64,000 nucleotides of DNA from Rhabdothermincola salaria (lineage in GTDB: Bacteria; Actinomycetota; Acidimicrobiia; Acidimicrobiales; Acidimicrobilacustridaceae): contig NZ_JAJQXW010000002.1 of assembly GCF_021246445.1 (NCBI RefSeq), positions 682,001 to 746,000 of the forward strand, given 5' to 3'. Each line of letters opens with the position of its first letter. Position 1 is the first letter of the stretch. Below, piece after piece: positions 45,433-60,706 of this stretch. Below the pieces are notes generated by a model. The model did no database searches. It saw only the letters and a program-made list of their open reading frames with translations, and was not told the DNA's origin. A program made the position numbers and the translations under genes.

Positions 45433-45912
45433 ATGCCGTTCGACGTCGGTGACAAGGTCGTCTACCCGCACCACGGTGCGGCGGTGATCGAGCGCAAGGA
45501 GTCCAAGGAGGCGTTCGGCGAGCAGCGGGAGTACTTCGTGCTGCGCCTCGCCTACGGCGAGCTGACCCTGATGGTCCCGGTCGACAACACCGACGAGGTC
45601 GGCCTGCGCGAGGTCATCACCGCGGAGGAGGTCGAGGAGGTCTACGACGTCCTGCGCAAGAAGGACGCGCGCATGCCCACCAACTGGTCGCGACGCTTCA
45701 AGAACCACGTCGAGAAGCTCAAGTCCGGCGACGTGTACCAGGTGGCCGAAGTGGTGCGGAACCTCACCCTGCGCGACAACGACAAGGGGCTCTCCGCCGG
45801 CGAGAAGCGCATGTTGGCCAAGGCCCGCCAGATCCTCGTGTCGGAGCTCACCTTCGCGCTCGAGCTCACCGAAGAAGAGGCCGAGGCCCAGCTCGACGGA
45901 GTCCTCACCTGA
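45433..45912 (+). CDS. carD: CarD-family transcriptional regulator
   Basis: Binds the RNA polymerase beta subunit and stabilises open complexes at rRNA and other promoters. In 159 residues: the N-terminal Tudor-like RNAP-interaction domain (FDVGDKVVYPHHGAAVIERKE at the start) and a C-terminal helical DNA-contacting domain (PTNWSRRFKNHVEKLKSGDVYQVAEVVRNL). Start ATG at 45433 with AGGGA upstream; TAGCCT at 45390-45395 could be the -10. It overlaps a putative CTG start of ispD; the carD-ispD-ispF row is standard in actinobacteria. Confidence 0.95.
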   Translation: MPFDVGDKVVYPHHGAAVIERKESKEAFGEQREYFVLRLAYGELTLMVPVDNTDEVGLREVITAEEVEEVYDVLRKKDARMPTNWSRRFKNHVEKLKSGDVYQVAEVVRNLTLRDNDKGLSAGEKRMLAKARQILVSELTFALELTEEEAEAQLDGVLT

Positions 45913-57412: not shown

Positions 57413-57550
57413 GTTGGCAGCCGGGTGCAGGAGCCGCAACACGCCGCAGGCCCGTCGCGTGCCCGTCGTGGGCCTCCGGTGCCCGGGGGCGTGAACCCAC
57501 CCGCCCGGACGACCTGACCGATGTCACACCGCCTCGGCGGATCGTCGGGA

Positions 57551-57568
57551 ACCAGGGCCGCTCCTGGT
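57551..57568. promoter_or_regulatory. Inverted repeat in the copper-operon leader
   Basis: ACCAGG (57551-57556) and CCTGGT (57563-57568) form a perfect 6-bp inverted repeat with a 6-nt spacer. GGGAAC at 57547-57552 could be an ECF-type -35. The region is upstream of the chosen SCO start; if translation began at the ATG at 57521, the repeat would be coding. Confidence 0.3.
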
Positions 57569-57655
57569 GCGACTACCACCAGCGTGCCCCGGTCCCCGCG
57601 CCCCGCATCCGCCCGAACTCGGTCGCATCGCAACCCCGACGGCCCGACCCCGGGC

Positions 57656-58252
57656 GTGGTGCGGGTGATCGTCGTCCTCGTCGCCTTGGCGCTGCTCGCC
57701 GCCGCGTGCGGCAGCGACGGGTCCGCGGCCTCGTTGAACGGCCTCCAGCAGGACCCTTCTCCGCAGGTGGGGGAGGTGGCACTGCCCGACGTGCTCGATG
57801 GCGGAGCTTCCTCCGCCATGCGGGCGCAGTCGGATGAGCTGCTGTTGGTGTTCTTCGGGTTCACCAGCTGCCCCGACATCTGCCCCACCACCATGGCGAC
57901 CATCGCCACCGCGCTCGACCAGCGCCCCGAGCTGGTGGACGAGGTGGAAGTCGCCATGGTGAGCGTCGACCCCGAGCGGGACACGGCGGATGTGATGCCG
58001 CGCTACGTCACCTCGTTCGTCGACCGGGCCCGGGCCCTGCGCACCGACGACCCGGCGACCCTGCGGGCCGCGGCCGACGCGTTCGGGGCGTCCTACCTGG
58101 TCACCACCGACGCCGACGGTGAACCCGATGTCGGGCACTCGGCCTATCTGTACGGCGTCGACGACCAGGGCCAGGTCGTCGTGACCTGGAGCTTCGGCGT
58201 CACCGCCGACGAGCTCTCGTCCGATCTCTCCACCCTGCTGACCCAGTCCTGA
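57656..58252 (+). CDS. SCO-family copper-binding/thioredoxin-like lipoprotein
   Basis: A 198-residue (from GTG 57656) exported protein, like Sco1/SenC, which deliver copper to cytochrome oxidase CuA. The short signal peptide ends in lipobox LLAAACGS (Cys18). The copper/redox motif CPDIC at residues 72-76 lies in FFGFTSCPDICPTTM, and the third ligand His is in VGHSAYLYGVDD. The start is uncertain: an in-frame ATG at 57521 would add 45 Arg/Ser/Pro-rich residues, which do not look like a signal peptide. First gene of a five-gene operon. Confidence 0.88.
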   Translation: MVRVIVVLVALALLAAACGSDGSAASLNGLQQDPSPQVGEVALPDVLDGGASSAMRAQSDELLLVFFGFTSCPDICPTTMATIATALDQRPELVDEVEVAMVSVDPERDTADVMPRYVTSFVDRARALRTDDPATLRAAADAFGASYLVTTDADGEPDVGHSAYLYGVDDQGQVVVTWSFGVTADELSSDLSTLLTQS

Positions 58253-58262
58253 GGAGGACCCC

Positions 58263-58907
58263 TTGACCACCGACCGACCGCTCACGTGCATCGACGGCCG
58301 ACGAACGCGGCCTCGCCGCCTCCTGGTCGTGCCTCTGCTGGCCGTGGCCGCGATGGTGCTGGCCGCGTGCGGCTCCACCGACGAGGCCGACGGCGGGGCG
58401 GCGGCGACCGTCGAGGTCCGCGACGCCTGGGCGCGCACGTCCCCCAGCGGGCAGATGAACGGCGCCGCCTACATGGTGCTGGTGGGGGGCGAGGAGGACG
58501 ACCGGCTGGTGGGGGTGAGCGTCGCCTCCGACGTGGCCGCTCGGGCCGAGCTGCACGAGACGGTGATGGCCGACGACGACGCCACCGGGATGGGCGGCGA
58601 TGCCCAGATGGACGGCGATGCCCAGATGGACGGCGATGCCCAGATGGACGGCGATGCCCAGATGGACGATGCCGGCATGGACGGGACCCCGACCACCATG
58701 GCCGCAACGCCGGGGATGATGACCATGCACGAGGTGTCTGCCATCGACGTGCCGGCCGGTGGGGAGGTGGCGCTCGAACCGGGCGGCTACCACGTGATGC
58801 TGCTGGAGCTGGCCGCCCCCCTCGTGGCCGGTGAGACGGTCGATCTCACCCTCGAGCTCGAGCAGGCCGGCACCGTCACCGTGACCGCCGAGGTCCGCAC
58901 CGCGTGA
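58263..58907 (+). CDS. PCu(A)C copper chaperone with Met-rich insert
   Basis: A 214-residue lipoprotein (lipobox VLAACGS, Cys36) with a PCu(A)C domain, which passes Cu(I) to SCO or CuA. The copper ligands are His98, Met155, His177 and Met179. The usual ten residues between His98 and the Met are expanded to 56 by a Met/Asp-rich insert with four perfect GDAQMD repeats and ten further Met in the insert. The TTG start is supported by AGGAGG spaced 6 nt upstream and by 10 nt spacing from the SCO gene. It should act outside the membrane next to the SCO protein. Confidence 0.88.
   Translation: MTTDRPLTCIDGRRTRPRRLLVVPLLAVAAMVLAACGSTDEADGGAAATVEVRDAWARTSPSGQMNGAAYMVLVGGEEDDRLVGVSVASDVAARAELHETVMADDDATGMGGDAQMDGDAQMDGDAQMDGDAQMDDAGMDGTPTTMAATPGMMTMHEVSAIDVPAGGEVALEPGGYHVMLLELAAPLVAGETVDLTLELEQAGTVTVTAEVRTA
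58596..58667 (+). repeat. Four perfect 18-bp tandem repeats
   Basis: The unit GGCGATGCCCAGATGGAC occurs four times in register and encodes GDAQMD each time. The copies are identical, pointing to recent expansion by slippage inside the PCu(A)C loop. Confidence 0.95.
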
Positions 58908-58917
58908 GGTCACGGCC

Positions 58918-59331
58918 GTGAGTCGATCCCCCCGTGGGGCGAGCGTGGCCGTCACCGCGGTGCTGCTGGTCGGCGCCGCGGCCCTGGGCGCATGGCTGGT
59001 GCTCGGGGGATCGGAACGAGGCCCCGGGGCCGTCCCCCGGTTCGAGATGGTGGATGCGTCGACTCCCGGTGACGTCGAGATCGTGATCCCGGCTGGTACC
59101 GCGTCCCGCTTGGCGAGCGGGGCGCCGGTGAGCGCCGTCCCCCGCCTGATCGAACCCCACGTCGGCGACGTGGTCGTCGTGCGCAACGAGGACGTCGACG
59201 CGGCCTTCCTCGGTCCGTTCTTCGTGCCGGCCGGGGAGACCATCGCCCACCGAGCCCTCAGCACCGGTGTGCTCGAAGGGTCCTGCTCGGCCCATGAGGA
59301 CGGACGGATCACCGTGGTGGTGGCGGCATGA
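58918..59331 (+). CDS. Cupredoxin-like membrane-anchored protein
   Basis: A 137-residue protein with an N-terminal membrane helix (about 10-29) and an extracytoplasmic beta-rich domain. VGDVVVVRNEDVDAAFLGPFFVPAGET and GVLEGSCSAHEDGRITVVV look like the second half of a cupredoxin, with Cys123 and His126 at the C-terminal ligand loop. The first His of a blue-copper site is not obvious (the place reads NEDVDAAF), so copper binding may be partial. GTG start 10 nt after the chaperone; its stop overlaps the sigma factor ATG. Role inferred from context as part of copper handling or sensing. Confidence 0.6.
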   Translation: MSRSPRGASVAVTAVLLVGAAALGAWLVLGGSERGPGAVPRFEMVDASTPGDVEIVIPAGTASRLASGAPVSAVPRLIEPHVGDVVVVRNEDVDAAFLGPFFVPAGETIAHRALSTGVLEGSCSAHEDGRITVVVAA

Positions 59332-59915
59332 ACACGGCTCGCCCGCGCCGGGTTGTGAGCCGACGAGGGAGCGGCGATGCTCGGGGGGTGGACGACACGA
59401 CGCGGCTGTTGCTCGCCGCCCGAGACGGTGACCGGGACGCCTTCGCCGAGTTCGTGCGCCGCACCCAGCCCGAGGTCCACCGGCTCTGCCGGGCGCTGAG
59501 CAGCCCGTCGGCCGCCGACGATCTCACCCAGGAGACCTACCTGCGGGCACTGGACGCGCTCGGGCGCTTTCGAGGCCGATCGTCGGCGCGCACGTGGTTG
59601 CTGGCCATCGCCCGCAACGTGGCGGCCGACGACATCCGTCGTCGGGGAGCACGCGGACGCCTGCTGTCCCGGCTGGGCGGCCCCGACGAACCCATGGCCT
59701 CACCAGGAGCCATGGTCCACACCGCGGACCTGTTGGCCCGCCTCCACCCCGATCGTCGCGACGCCTTCGCGCTCACCCAGCTGCTGGGCCTCAGCTACGC
59801 CGAGGCCGCCGAGGTCCTCGACTGCCCGGTGGGGACGATCCGCTCCCGGGTGGCGCGTGCCCGCGAGGACCTGGTCGACGCGCTTCGCGACCCTCGCGCC
59901 GAGGAGACGGGATGA
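59328..59915 (+). CDS. ECF sigma factor
   Basis: A 195-residue group 4 sigma factor. Region 2 contains VHRLCRALSSPSAADDLTQETYLRALDALGRF and RTWLLAIARNVAADDIRRR; region 4 is RDAFALTQLLGLSYAEAAEVLDCPVGTIRSRVARA, typical of SigC/SigM-like ECF factors. An N-terminal Arg-rich stretch of about 20 residues precedes region 2. It overlaps both neighbours by 4 nt (cupredoxin-like before, anti-sigma after), so it is made with the copper proteins. Likely targets include its own operon; a GGGAAC motif lies upstream at 57547. Confidence 0.92.
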   Translation: MNTARPRRVVSRRGSGDARGVDDTTRLLLAARDGDRDAFAEFVRRTQPEVHRLCRALSSPSAADDLTQETYLRALDALGRFRGRSSARTWLLAIARNVAADDIRRRGARGRLLSRLGGPDEPMASPGAMVHTADLLARLHPDRRDAFALTQLLGLSYAEAAEVLDCPVGTIRSRVARAREDLVDALRDPRAEETG

Positions 59916-60706
59916 CCGGCCGGAAGGACACTCCGATCGCCCTGCCGGCCGAGTGCTCGCCGTGGCGCGAGGCCCTCTCGGCCCGGATCGACGGAGAGCT
60001 CCCCGCGGCCGACCACGGCGGCCTCGACGACCACCTGGCCGGGTGCGAGAGCTGCCGGGCCTTCGCCGGTGACGCGGAGGCCTCCCACCGGGCTCTTCGG
60101 CTCGGTCCCGCCGAAGCCGTGGGCGACCGGACCGACGCGATCATGGCCGCCTGGGACGACCGCCAGGATCGAGACGGGCCGTCGCGCCGGCACCGTCCAG
60201 CGCGACGGGTCGGTGTGGCGGCGCTGGTGGCGGCCGCCCTGGTGGTGCTGGCCGGCCTGGCCGGGTGGTGGCCCGGTGGAGGCGGCGCGGACGCCGAACC
60301 GGCGTTGGCCTTCGCGTCGGGCGTGGCCACCCCGGCCCCGGCGGAGGGCAACACGGCGGTGTACGTGTCGCTCACCAACGACGGAGGCTCGGACCGCCTC
60401 CTGGGCGTCGACACCGACGTCGCCGAGCGGGCCACGCTGCACGCCACCGAGCAGCGCGACGGCCTGGTGCTCATGACCGGCCGCGACGACTACCCCGTGC
60501 CGGGCGACACGACGGTCGTGTTCCAGCCGGGGGGCGCCCACGTGATGCTCGAAGGGCTCCGGCGTCCGCTCGAGGTCGGGGACCGGCTCGAGGTGGTGCT
60601 CGAGTTCGAACGCTCGGCCTCGCGCACGCTGATGGTCGAGGTGGTGTCGCTCAGCGAGGTCACCGAGGTCGTCGGTATCGCCTCGCAGCTGATGGGCCCC
60701 GCCTGA
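59912..60706 (+). CDS. Anti-sigma factor fused to PCu(A)C copper-binding domain
   Basis: A 264-residue three-part protein. Residues 1-60 form a zinc anti-sigma domain with Cys15, His41, Cys45 and Cys48 (HLAGCESC), the spacing of RsrA-like ZAS domains. Residues 101-119 are a membrane helix after an Arg-rich stretch, placing the ZAS part in the cytoplasm. Residues 128-245 form a PCu(A)C domain outside, with His177, Met188, His210 and Met212 in the exact H-x10-M-x21-H-x-M spacing of copper chaperones. The design suggests that copper binding outside controls sigma release inside. The start overlaps the sigma gene by ATGA. Confidence 0.85.
   Translation: MTGRKDTPIALPAECSPWREALSARIDGELPAADHGGLDDHLAGCESCRAFAGDAEASHRALRLGPAEAVGDRTDAIMAAWDDRQDRDGPSRRHRPARRVGVAALVAAALVVLAGLAGWWPGGGGADAEPALAFASGVATPAPAEGNTAVYVSLTNDGGSDRLLGVDTDVAERATLHATEQRDGLVLMTGRDDYPVPGDTTVVFQPGGAHVMLEGLRRPLEVGDRLEVVLEFERSASRTLMVEVVSLSEVTEVVGIASQLMGPA

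Follow-up and report, generated by a model that had tools for sequence, protein, structure and literature searches.

A zinc anti-sigma factor fused to a PCu(A)C domain at a SigC-like copper locus: a candidate sensor of copper shortage

The operon and the protein encoded by its last gene

The window (the whole stretch of DNA analysed, 64 kb in length) contains an operon with all genes on the plus strand, in the order sco, pcuAC, a gene for a cupredoxin-like protein, a gene for a SigC-like ECF sigma factor and, as the last gene, an anti-sigma factor fused to a PCu(A)C domain (hereafter, the fusion). The sco gene (57584..58252, +) encodes a SCO1/SenC copper protein with a lipoprotein-like N-terminus (PF02630, 94.6 bits), whose start we revised to a GTG. 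The mechanically predicted reading frame begins with the ATG at 57521, which lies upstream of the promoter motif described below, and hence the GTG at 57584 is the more likely start. This codon is in frame with sco, is situated 9 nt after the -10-like CGACT and resembles the leaderless-looking starts of relatives; we regard it as the likely start of sco, possibly a leaderless one.

The second gene (58263..58907, +) encodes a lipoprotein-like PCu(A)C copper chaperone, which matches PF04314 in two stretches (113.6 bits) and contains a methionine-rich insert. The insert, situated inside the domain between the ligand halves, contains four copies of the hexapeptide GDAQMD (58596-58667). The third gene product (58918..59331, +) is a membrane-anchored cupredoxin-like protein, assigned by its phmmer relatives with an H...C-x2-H pattern; no Pfam or NCBIfam family matched it above the cut-off. 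Its relatives adjoin sco in five SigC loci (L041, L045, L233, L240, L244). Most of them carry both GHxxG and C-x2-H, the window copy being without the first histidine.

The sigma factor (59328..59915, +; PF04542, PF08281) is closest to the NCBIfam models PRK12535 (162.6 bits) and SigC (152.1 bits), followed by RpoE (90.8 bits), all these scores being below the equivalog cut-offs. As the SigC equivalog cut-off is 219, we call the protein SigC-like and not a SigC equivalog. Among solved structures its best match is M. tuberculosis sigma-C (2o7g, 1.5e-21). With the mechanical starts, ATGA overlaps join the last three genes, so that the sigma factor gene starts in the last codons of the cupredoxin-like gene and the fusion gene in the last codons of the sigma factor gene. 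The overlap of the latter pair, 4 bases, bears out the link to an ECF sigma factor that the initial annotation, made from the sequence before this analysis, had assumed.

The fusion (59912..60706, +) is translated into 264 amino acids with no internal stop. Its N-terminal part is a zf-HC2 anti-sigma domain (residues 15-49; 59954..60058, +), which scores 38.3 bits with PF13490 against a cut-off of 22.2 and contains the Hx3Cx2C pattern. The C-terminal part is formed by a PCu(A)C domain spanning residues 140-237 (60329..60622, +), which scores 87.8 bits with PF04314 against a cut-off of 29.4, and its predicted Cu(I) ligands are His177, Met188, His210 and Met212 (60440..60547, +). Both domains had been named in the initial annotation, and Pfam agrees with it on each, PF04314 being well above its cut-off. 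The zinc residues Cys15, His41, Cys45 and Cys48 are exactly where it had put them, and for the copper ligands both the positions and the H-x10-M-x21-H-x-M spacing are exact. In a sequence search against solved structures the PCu(A)C domain had its best match in 9rf0 (3.5e-13), with 2k6w and 1x9l also found.

Between the domains there is a single predicted transmembrane helix at about residues 100-118 (60209..60265, +), close to the one membrane helix annotated earlier at about 101-119. The most hydrophobic 19-residue segment of the protein starts at residue 100 (mean Kyte-Doolittle hydropathy 2.5), and a helix spans residues 101-114 in a low-confidence structural model. The Arg-rich stretch RRHRPARR precedes this segment and fits an N-inside orientation; thus, the zinc domain is expected to be cytoplasmic, with the PCu(A)C domain on the outer side of the membrane. 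The NCBIfam anti-sigma models that match the fusion do so below their cut-offs (NF052375, 25.6 against 100 bits; NF052368, 24.4 against 50), and the RsrA and ChrR models, also below cut-off, score lower still.

Structure prediction, which had been suggested as a check of the C-terminal domain, should show the cupredoxin-like beta fold of PCu(A)C; the models, built from three-row alignments, are of low confidence (AlphaFold pLDDT 52.8 for the whole fusion, 58.9 for the PCu(A)C domain alone), though their best matches are of this family. For the low-confidence model of the whole fusion, Foldseek ranks 1-11 are all PCuAC-family structures; for that of the domain alone, VIA-align ranks 1-9 are of the same family (Z 7.8-9.6).

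The usual anti-sigma factor of SigC-like loci and the recurrence of the fusion

SigC-like sigma factors were found in 34 of 148 genomes, the window's own included (E <= 1e-25). In 24 of the 30 SigC-like loci that were retained, there is a zf-HC2 anti-sigma factor with a C-terminal multi-helix membrane domain. One of the remaining six is the locus of the window with its fusion, and the other five (L049, L068, L069, L072, L077) show neither type. Across 185 loci searched with local profiles, we observed 43 distinct ORFs of the membrane-type anti-sigma factor and only three fusions. Judged by the sequences, the PCu(A)C domain of the fusion stands in the place of the multi-helix membrane domain. 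In the genome of the window (G000) and in one of the two other fusion-bearing genomes (G350), the fusion is the sole match to the usual SigC anti-sigma factor at E <= 0.001; the other one (G005) has a membrane-type anti-sigma factor besides its fusion. The idea of a one-protein sensor, with which the earlier annotation had explained the fusion, is supported by the architecture, the conserved copper ligands and the copper context, but not as an isolated system: the fusion belongs, as a variant, to a widespread class in which SigC-like sigma factors are paired with zf-HC2 anti-sigma factors, most of the latter in the loci examined being of the membrane type.

The search for further proteins with both domains covered 148 relatives, 395 genomes of the class, 397 of the order and 396 of the phylum, these sets overlapping, and was complemented by a pattern scan of contigs. 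It yielded the same two-domain fusion in two further genomes of other genera, G005 from the same family and G350 from the same order, which answers positively the question raised with the initial annotation, whether other proteins combine zf-HC2 and PCuAC. Over all genome searches there are at least three fusions, at most six candidates per genome having been scored in the class, order and phylum sets. Long or partial matches in 15 genomes (G830, G1025, G955, G739, G782, G860, G124, G568, G525, G849, G355, G970, G308, G875, G838) were inspected at their positions, and by local profiles none of them was a fusion. The genome G001, of the same genus as the window's, has neither a SigC-like sigma factor, nor the fusion, nor the anti-sigma factor of such a sigma factor.

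All three fusions pass both Pfam cut-offs, the other two with 67.2 and 65.1 bits for PF04314. The zinc residues and the four copper ligands are invariant across the three proteins at only 38% identity to the protein of the window; in the G005 fusion the first spacer of the ligand motif is longer by one residue. An identical architecture in two other genomes rules out a chance fusion or an error in a single assembly.

Conservation of the ligands also bears on what the domain may sense. The PCu(A)C domain could dock the Sco or PCu(A)C protein, or read the assembly status of cytochrome oxidase, and not sense copper itself. The operon encodes likely partners, Sco and PCu(A)C, and a defective aa3 oxidase has been suggested as a stimulus of SigC in C. 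glutamicum (PMC7337898). In the VIA-align comparison of the low-confidence domain model, chains of the M. smegmatis respiratory supercomplex, which we presume to be PCu(A)C-like, occupy ranks 10-12 (Z 7.4-7.6), followed by immunoglobulins from 6.7. On the other hand, docking alone would not need the four metal ligands, and these are kept in three diverged fusions. We consider such a sensor of assembly status unlikely.

The genomic positions of the other two fusions differ. In G350 the sigma factor gene is situated directly upstream of the fusion gene; the mechanical start of the latter overlaps the sigma factor gene by 4 bases, and its second methionine, the start needed by the promoter motif, is about 24 bases past the stop of the sigma factor gene. 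The G005 fusion is not adjacent to a sigma factor gene and stands alone; the sigma factor, 60% identical to that of the window, is encoded on another contig, divergently from copCD-ycnI. Beside the sigma-fusion pair of G350 there are Nramp and ZnuA genes (L178:8804-13369, -), convergent with it. The G005 fusion (L034:7198-11754, +) is situated between genes that by eye look like those of CobW-type metallochaperones and of a type-B L31 protein. A setting of CobW-type and type-B L31 genes is typical of zinc-starvation loci.

As to the origin of the fusions, three changes of label are needed on the sigma factor tree and three on the PCuAC tree, with few strong branches in either. A grouping of the three fusion PCuAC domains was not rejected (p-AU 0.941, quick tree). 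The PCu(A)C domain was possibly recruited into anti-sigma factors more than once. Formation of the fusion by duplication of the neighbouring pcuAC is possible but not supported; the adjacent PCu(A)C protein is nearest to other chaperones, in a tree with few strong branches. In three loci of same-family relatives (L012, L013, L019) there are ORFs that by eye resemble a Sco protein with a PCu(A)C domain attached.

The promoter motif and the genes behind it

We took 31 intergenic regions that separate a sigma factor gene from a divergently transcribed anti-sigma factor gene and searched them for GGAAC and C/TGAC separated by 14-22 bases. A site reading towards the anti-sigma factor was observed in 26 of the 31 regions, and none read towards the sigma factor; the intergenic regions of L050, L054, L064, L065 and L066 had no site. 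The consensus is GGAAC-N17-CGAC, with a spacing of exactly 17 in 23 of 27 sites. The other four (L051, L055, L056, L086), first scored with a spacing of 14, have on inspection a further CGAC at 17. We trained a matrix on 22 of the 27 sites, leaving out these four and the second site of L026. The matrix is circular for the promoters of anti-sigma factors, which are its training set; one of the training sites, in L044, falls below the cut of 16 with a score of 13.2.

In the 64-kb window the pattern GGGAACY-N16-CGACY has a sole match, GGGAACC-N16-CGACT at 57547..57574 (+), upstream of sco; it is the predicted driver of the whole operon. The chance expectation of a match in the window is 0.05, and 5 of 100 shuffled sequences had one or more. 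The matrix score at 57547 (22.5) is the best in the window, the next one being 18.1 at 45757. In G005 the fusion gene is immediately preceded by the motif, and copCD-ycnI by a matrix hit of lower score (18.1). In G350 it is found before the fusion, if the latter starts with the second methionine, and before ycnI-copCD. Thus, in all three cases the motif precedes the fusion gene or its operon. For G005, the fusion's own motif and the unlinked sigma factor provide the link between the two.

These observations bear on two further explanations. The fusion could be a chance or decayed one with no role in sensing, as it is rare, with three cases. However, it is an intact ORF in three genera, with invariant ligands and with the motif before the gene or operon in all three, which makes this explanation highly improbable. 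Alternatively, the protein could sense another metal or a general metal shortage, zinc or manganese besides copper. The main hint here is given by Nramp and ZnuA beside the G350 pair, followed by the CobW-type-looking and type-B L31-looking neighbours of the G005 fusion. Against it, the operon partners identified in the window are the copper proteins Sco and PCu(A)C, and the motifs of G350 and G005 also precede ycnI/copCD; we consider this explanation quite improbable.

As a control of the matrix, we scanned 35 SigC-related loci (488,541 bases) at the true spacing and with the spacing slid by 1-3 bases. At 16 bits or more there were 51 hits at the true spacing versus 1, 1, 2, 5, 6 and 14 at the slid ones (14 at -3); at 20 bits or more, 32 hits versus 0-1. 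For 20 of the 28 units containing sco, pcuAC, ycnI or copCD, the motif was situated no more than 650 nt upstream of the domain of the first gene. Five of the other eight (the sigma-fusion unit of L178, and units of L040, L041, L045 and L230) have it inside the unit, before a copper gene or the fusion, and three, one each of L044, L227 and L233, have no motif. Once units starting with a membrane-type anti-sigma factor were excluded, it was upstream of the first gene in 13 of 20. In Blastococcus and Geodermatophilus (L079, L080, L086), profiles place the motif, the anti-sigma factor, copCD, ycnI and sco in one run.

We also inspected ten motif hits, most of them with no assigned gene, and scanned with profiles the eight genes that start no more than 140 nt from them. 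These were DsbB (L228:4285-4908), DsbA-like thioredoxins (L044:11033-11773, L085:8302-9030, L089:8784-9509; these and the DsbB gene all +), Sco (L241), DUF1775/YcnI (L229), PCuAC (L043) and one gene with no family (L239). This composition suggests that the regulon may couple copper delivery with thiol redox.

Counted over eight whole genomes, the exact pattern occurs 69 times versus 48 for the reversed-pattern control, with 8 versus 4 in G000 and 4 versus 8 in G350; in G001, although it lacks a SigC-like sigma factor, the counts are 8 versus 3. Number alone therefore carries no weight, and the meaning of the motif comes from its position. In the genome of the window, its own copCD-ycnI locus and the second sco-pcuAC locus have no motif, so that the predicted regulon there may consist of just the one operon. 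Of the seven further exact matches there, none is situated before a profile-recognised gene, the ORFs having been read around one of them only; a wide regulon in this genome is not supported by its motif matches.

Regulation by copper and comparison with known systems

The sign of the response could be either of two, release of the sigma factor in copper shortage or in copper excess. Of the genes behind the motif, ycnI/copCD probably take up copper, and sco/pcuAC probably deliver it. The ycn operon of B. subtilis is described as encoding a putative copper importer and a copper-dependent repressor (PMC8424229). CopC and CopD bear copper-resistance names in Pfam, and the direction of their copper transport is thus not certain. 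As to SigC itself, that of M. tuberculosis is described as a factor that 'prevents copper starvation' (PMC7924339), and in C. glutamicum a lack of copper or a disturbance of haem a insertion is reported to switch on its regulon (PMC7337898). Taken together, the genes behind the motif and the role of SigC in shortage indicate that the sigma factor is most likely released at low copper.

The opposite sign, with Cu(I) on the PCu(A)C domain releasing the sigma factor and the operon answering a copper load, had been proposed for testing in the initial annotation and is probably wrong, as the genes behind the motif point to copper shortage. This sign has a precedent in CorE of Myxococcus, described as a sigma factor that Cu2+ activates (PMC8999054); a role of Sco and PCu(A)C in buffering copper is conceivable, and by its Pfam name CopD is a resistance protein. 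However, behind the motif we identified sco, pcuAC, ycnI/copCD and genes of thiol redox, with no efflux pump among these identified genes, and both SigC systems with published conditions are reported to act in copper shortage (PMC7924339, PMC7337898). We therefore regard a sensor of excess as rather unlikely.

We consider it fairly probable that the fusion is the anti-sigma factor of the SigC-like (ECF36-type) sigma factor, that its PCu(A)C domain serves as an extracytoplasmic sensor of copper status, and that the sigma factor is freed in copper shortage. On the computed domains, ligands, operon, motif with its position, and recurrence, we infer how copper binding, sigma factor binding, the sign of the response and signalling across the membrane would work. 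If copper is sufficient, Cu(I) would be bound by His177, Met188, His210 and Met212, and the cytoplasmic zf-HC2 domain would hold the sigma factor. If extracytoplasmic copper is low, or if it is withdrawn by the Sco and PCu(A)C proteins of the same operon, which would compete for it with the PCu(A)C domain of the fusion, the domain would turn into its apo form. The apo domain would loosen or destabilise the anti-sigma factor, the signal crossing the membrane by a conformational change or by anti-sigma proteolysis, and the sigma factor would be freed. It would then transcribe motif-bearing promoters, that of its own operon included, and copper delivery would increase. The sigma factor would thus drive its own operon (positive feedback), and the anti-sigma factor, encoded by the last gene, would be remade (negative feedback).

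Several known systems share parts of this scheme. In CnrYXH of Cupriavidus metallidurans, an ECF sigma factor is likewise controlled through an anti-sigma factor by a metal signal from outside the membrane; that system uses a separate sensor protein, CnrX, and responds to an excess of nickel and cobalt. In the window, in contrast, the putative sensor domain is situated on the anti-sigma factor itself; a structure of CnrH is among the solved-structure matches of the window's sigma factor. Class I zinc zf-HC2 membrane anti-sigma factors have the same Hx3Cx2C cytoplasmic domain and a sigma factor encoded alongside, whereas the predicted sensor part of the fusion is PCu(A)C, and the matching NCBIfam anti-sigma models are below their cut-offs. 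The same domain and Cu(I) ligand set are found in PCu(A)C proteins such as Thermus PCuA (2k6w), AccA (9yah), S. lividans SL3965 (3zja) and PmoF1/PmoF2 (6p16/6p1f). These are chaperones or copper-binding domains, whereas the domain of the window is joined to a regulator. CorE of Myxococcus xanthus belongs, too, to a copper-responsive ECF system, but its sensor is described as a Cys-rich, cytoplasmic extension on the sigma factor (PMC8999054), while the candidate sensor of the window is on the anti-sigma factor and predicted to be extracytoplasmic.

The closest sigma factor family is SigC (ECF36) of M. tuberculosis and C. glutamicum, with the role in copper shortage reported for both. According to PMC7924339, SigC of M. 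tuberculosis had no known anti-sigma factor as of 2021, and a conformational switch has been proposed for it (PMC8999054), whereas in the window an anti-sigma factor with a copper-chaperone domain is encoded together with the sigma factor. Section 2.8 of PMC7924339 treats as open both the means by which M. tuberculosis detects a lack of copper and the existence of an anti-sigma factor of SigC. The locus described here, although from another actinobacterial class, provides a concrete candidate for such a sensor, with defined predicted ligands, a partner sigma factor and a predicted promoter, which makes the question testable.

The initial annotation had known of no described system of this kind, and we likewise found, in the open-licence literature, no publication that couples an anti-sigma or sigma factor with PCuAC; the main text of PMC7406223 mentions neither copper nor PCuAC. 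The sigma factor and the class of the anti-sigma factor are known, and PCu(A)C as the candidate sensor domain is new. If the proposed regulation is true, the fold of a copper chaperone is used for signalling. We incline slightly towards the broader view that PCu(A)C was recruited as a periplasmic shortage sensor in place of the multi-helix domain, and that anti-sigma factors of these types are the missing sensors of the actinobacterial copper-acquisition regulon.

The comparison also brought to light a wider family of SigC-linked anti-sigma factors with a second, unnamed candidate sensor domain. Examples of the membrane type, found with local profiles, are L055:800-1879 (-) and L045:9321-10034 (+), among others; in the two examples scanned, the multi-helix domain had no Pfam match. 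In G434 there is a zf-HC2 ORF (L179:3458-4939, -) in which no membrane domain was recognised; it is co-directional with its SigC-like sigma factor and divergent from sco-pcuAC. The multi-helix domain, a candidate for copper sensing, has conserved His, Asp and Glu residues: in 39 copies (numbered by the L055 domain), His109 is conserved in 39, His48 and Asp95 in 37 each, and Glu106 in 33.
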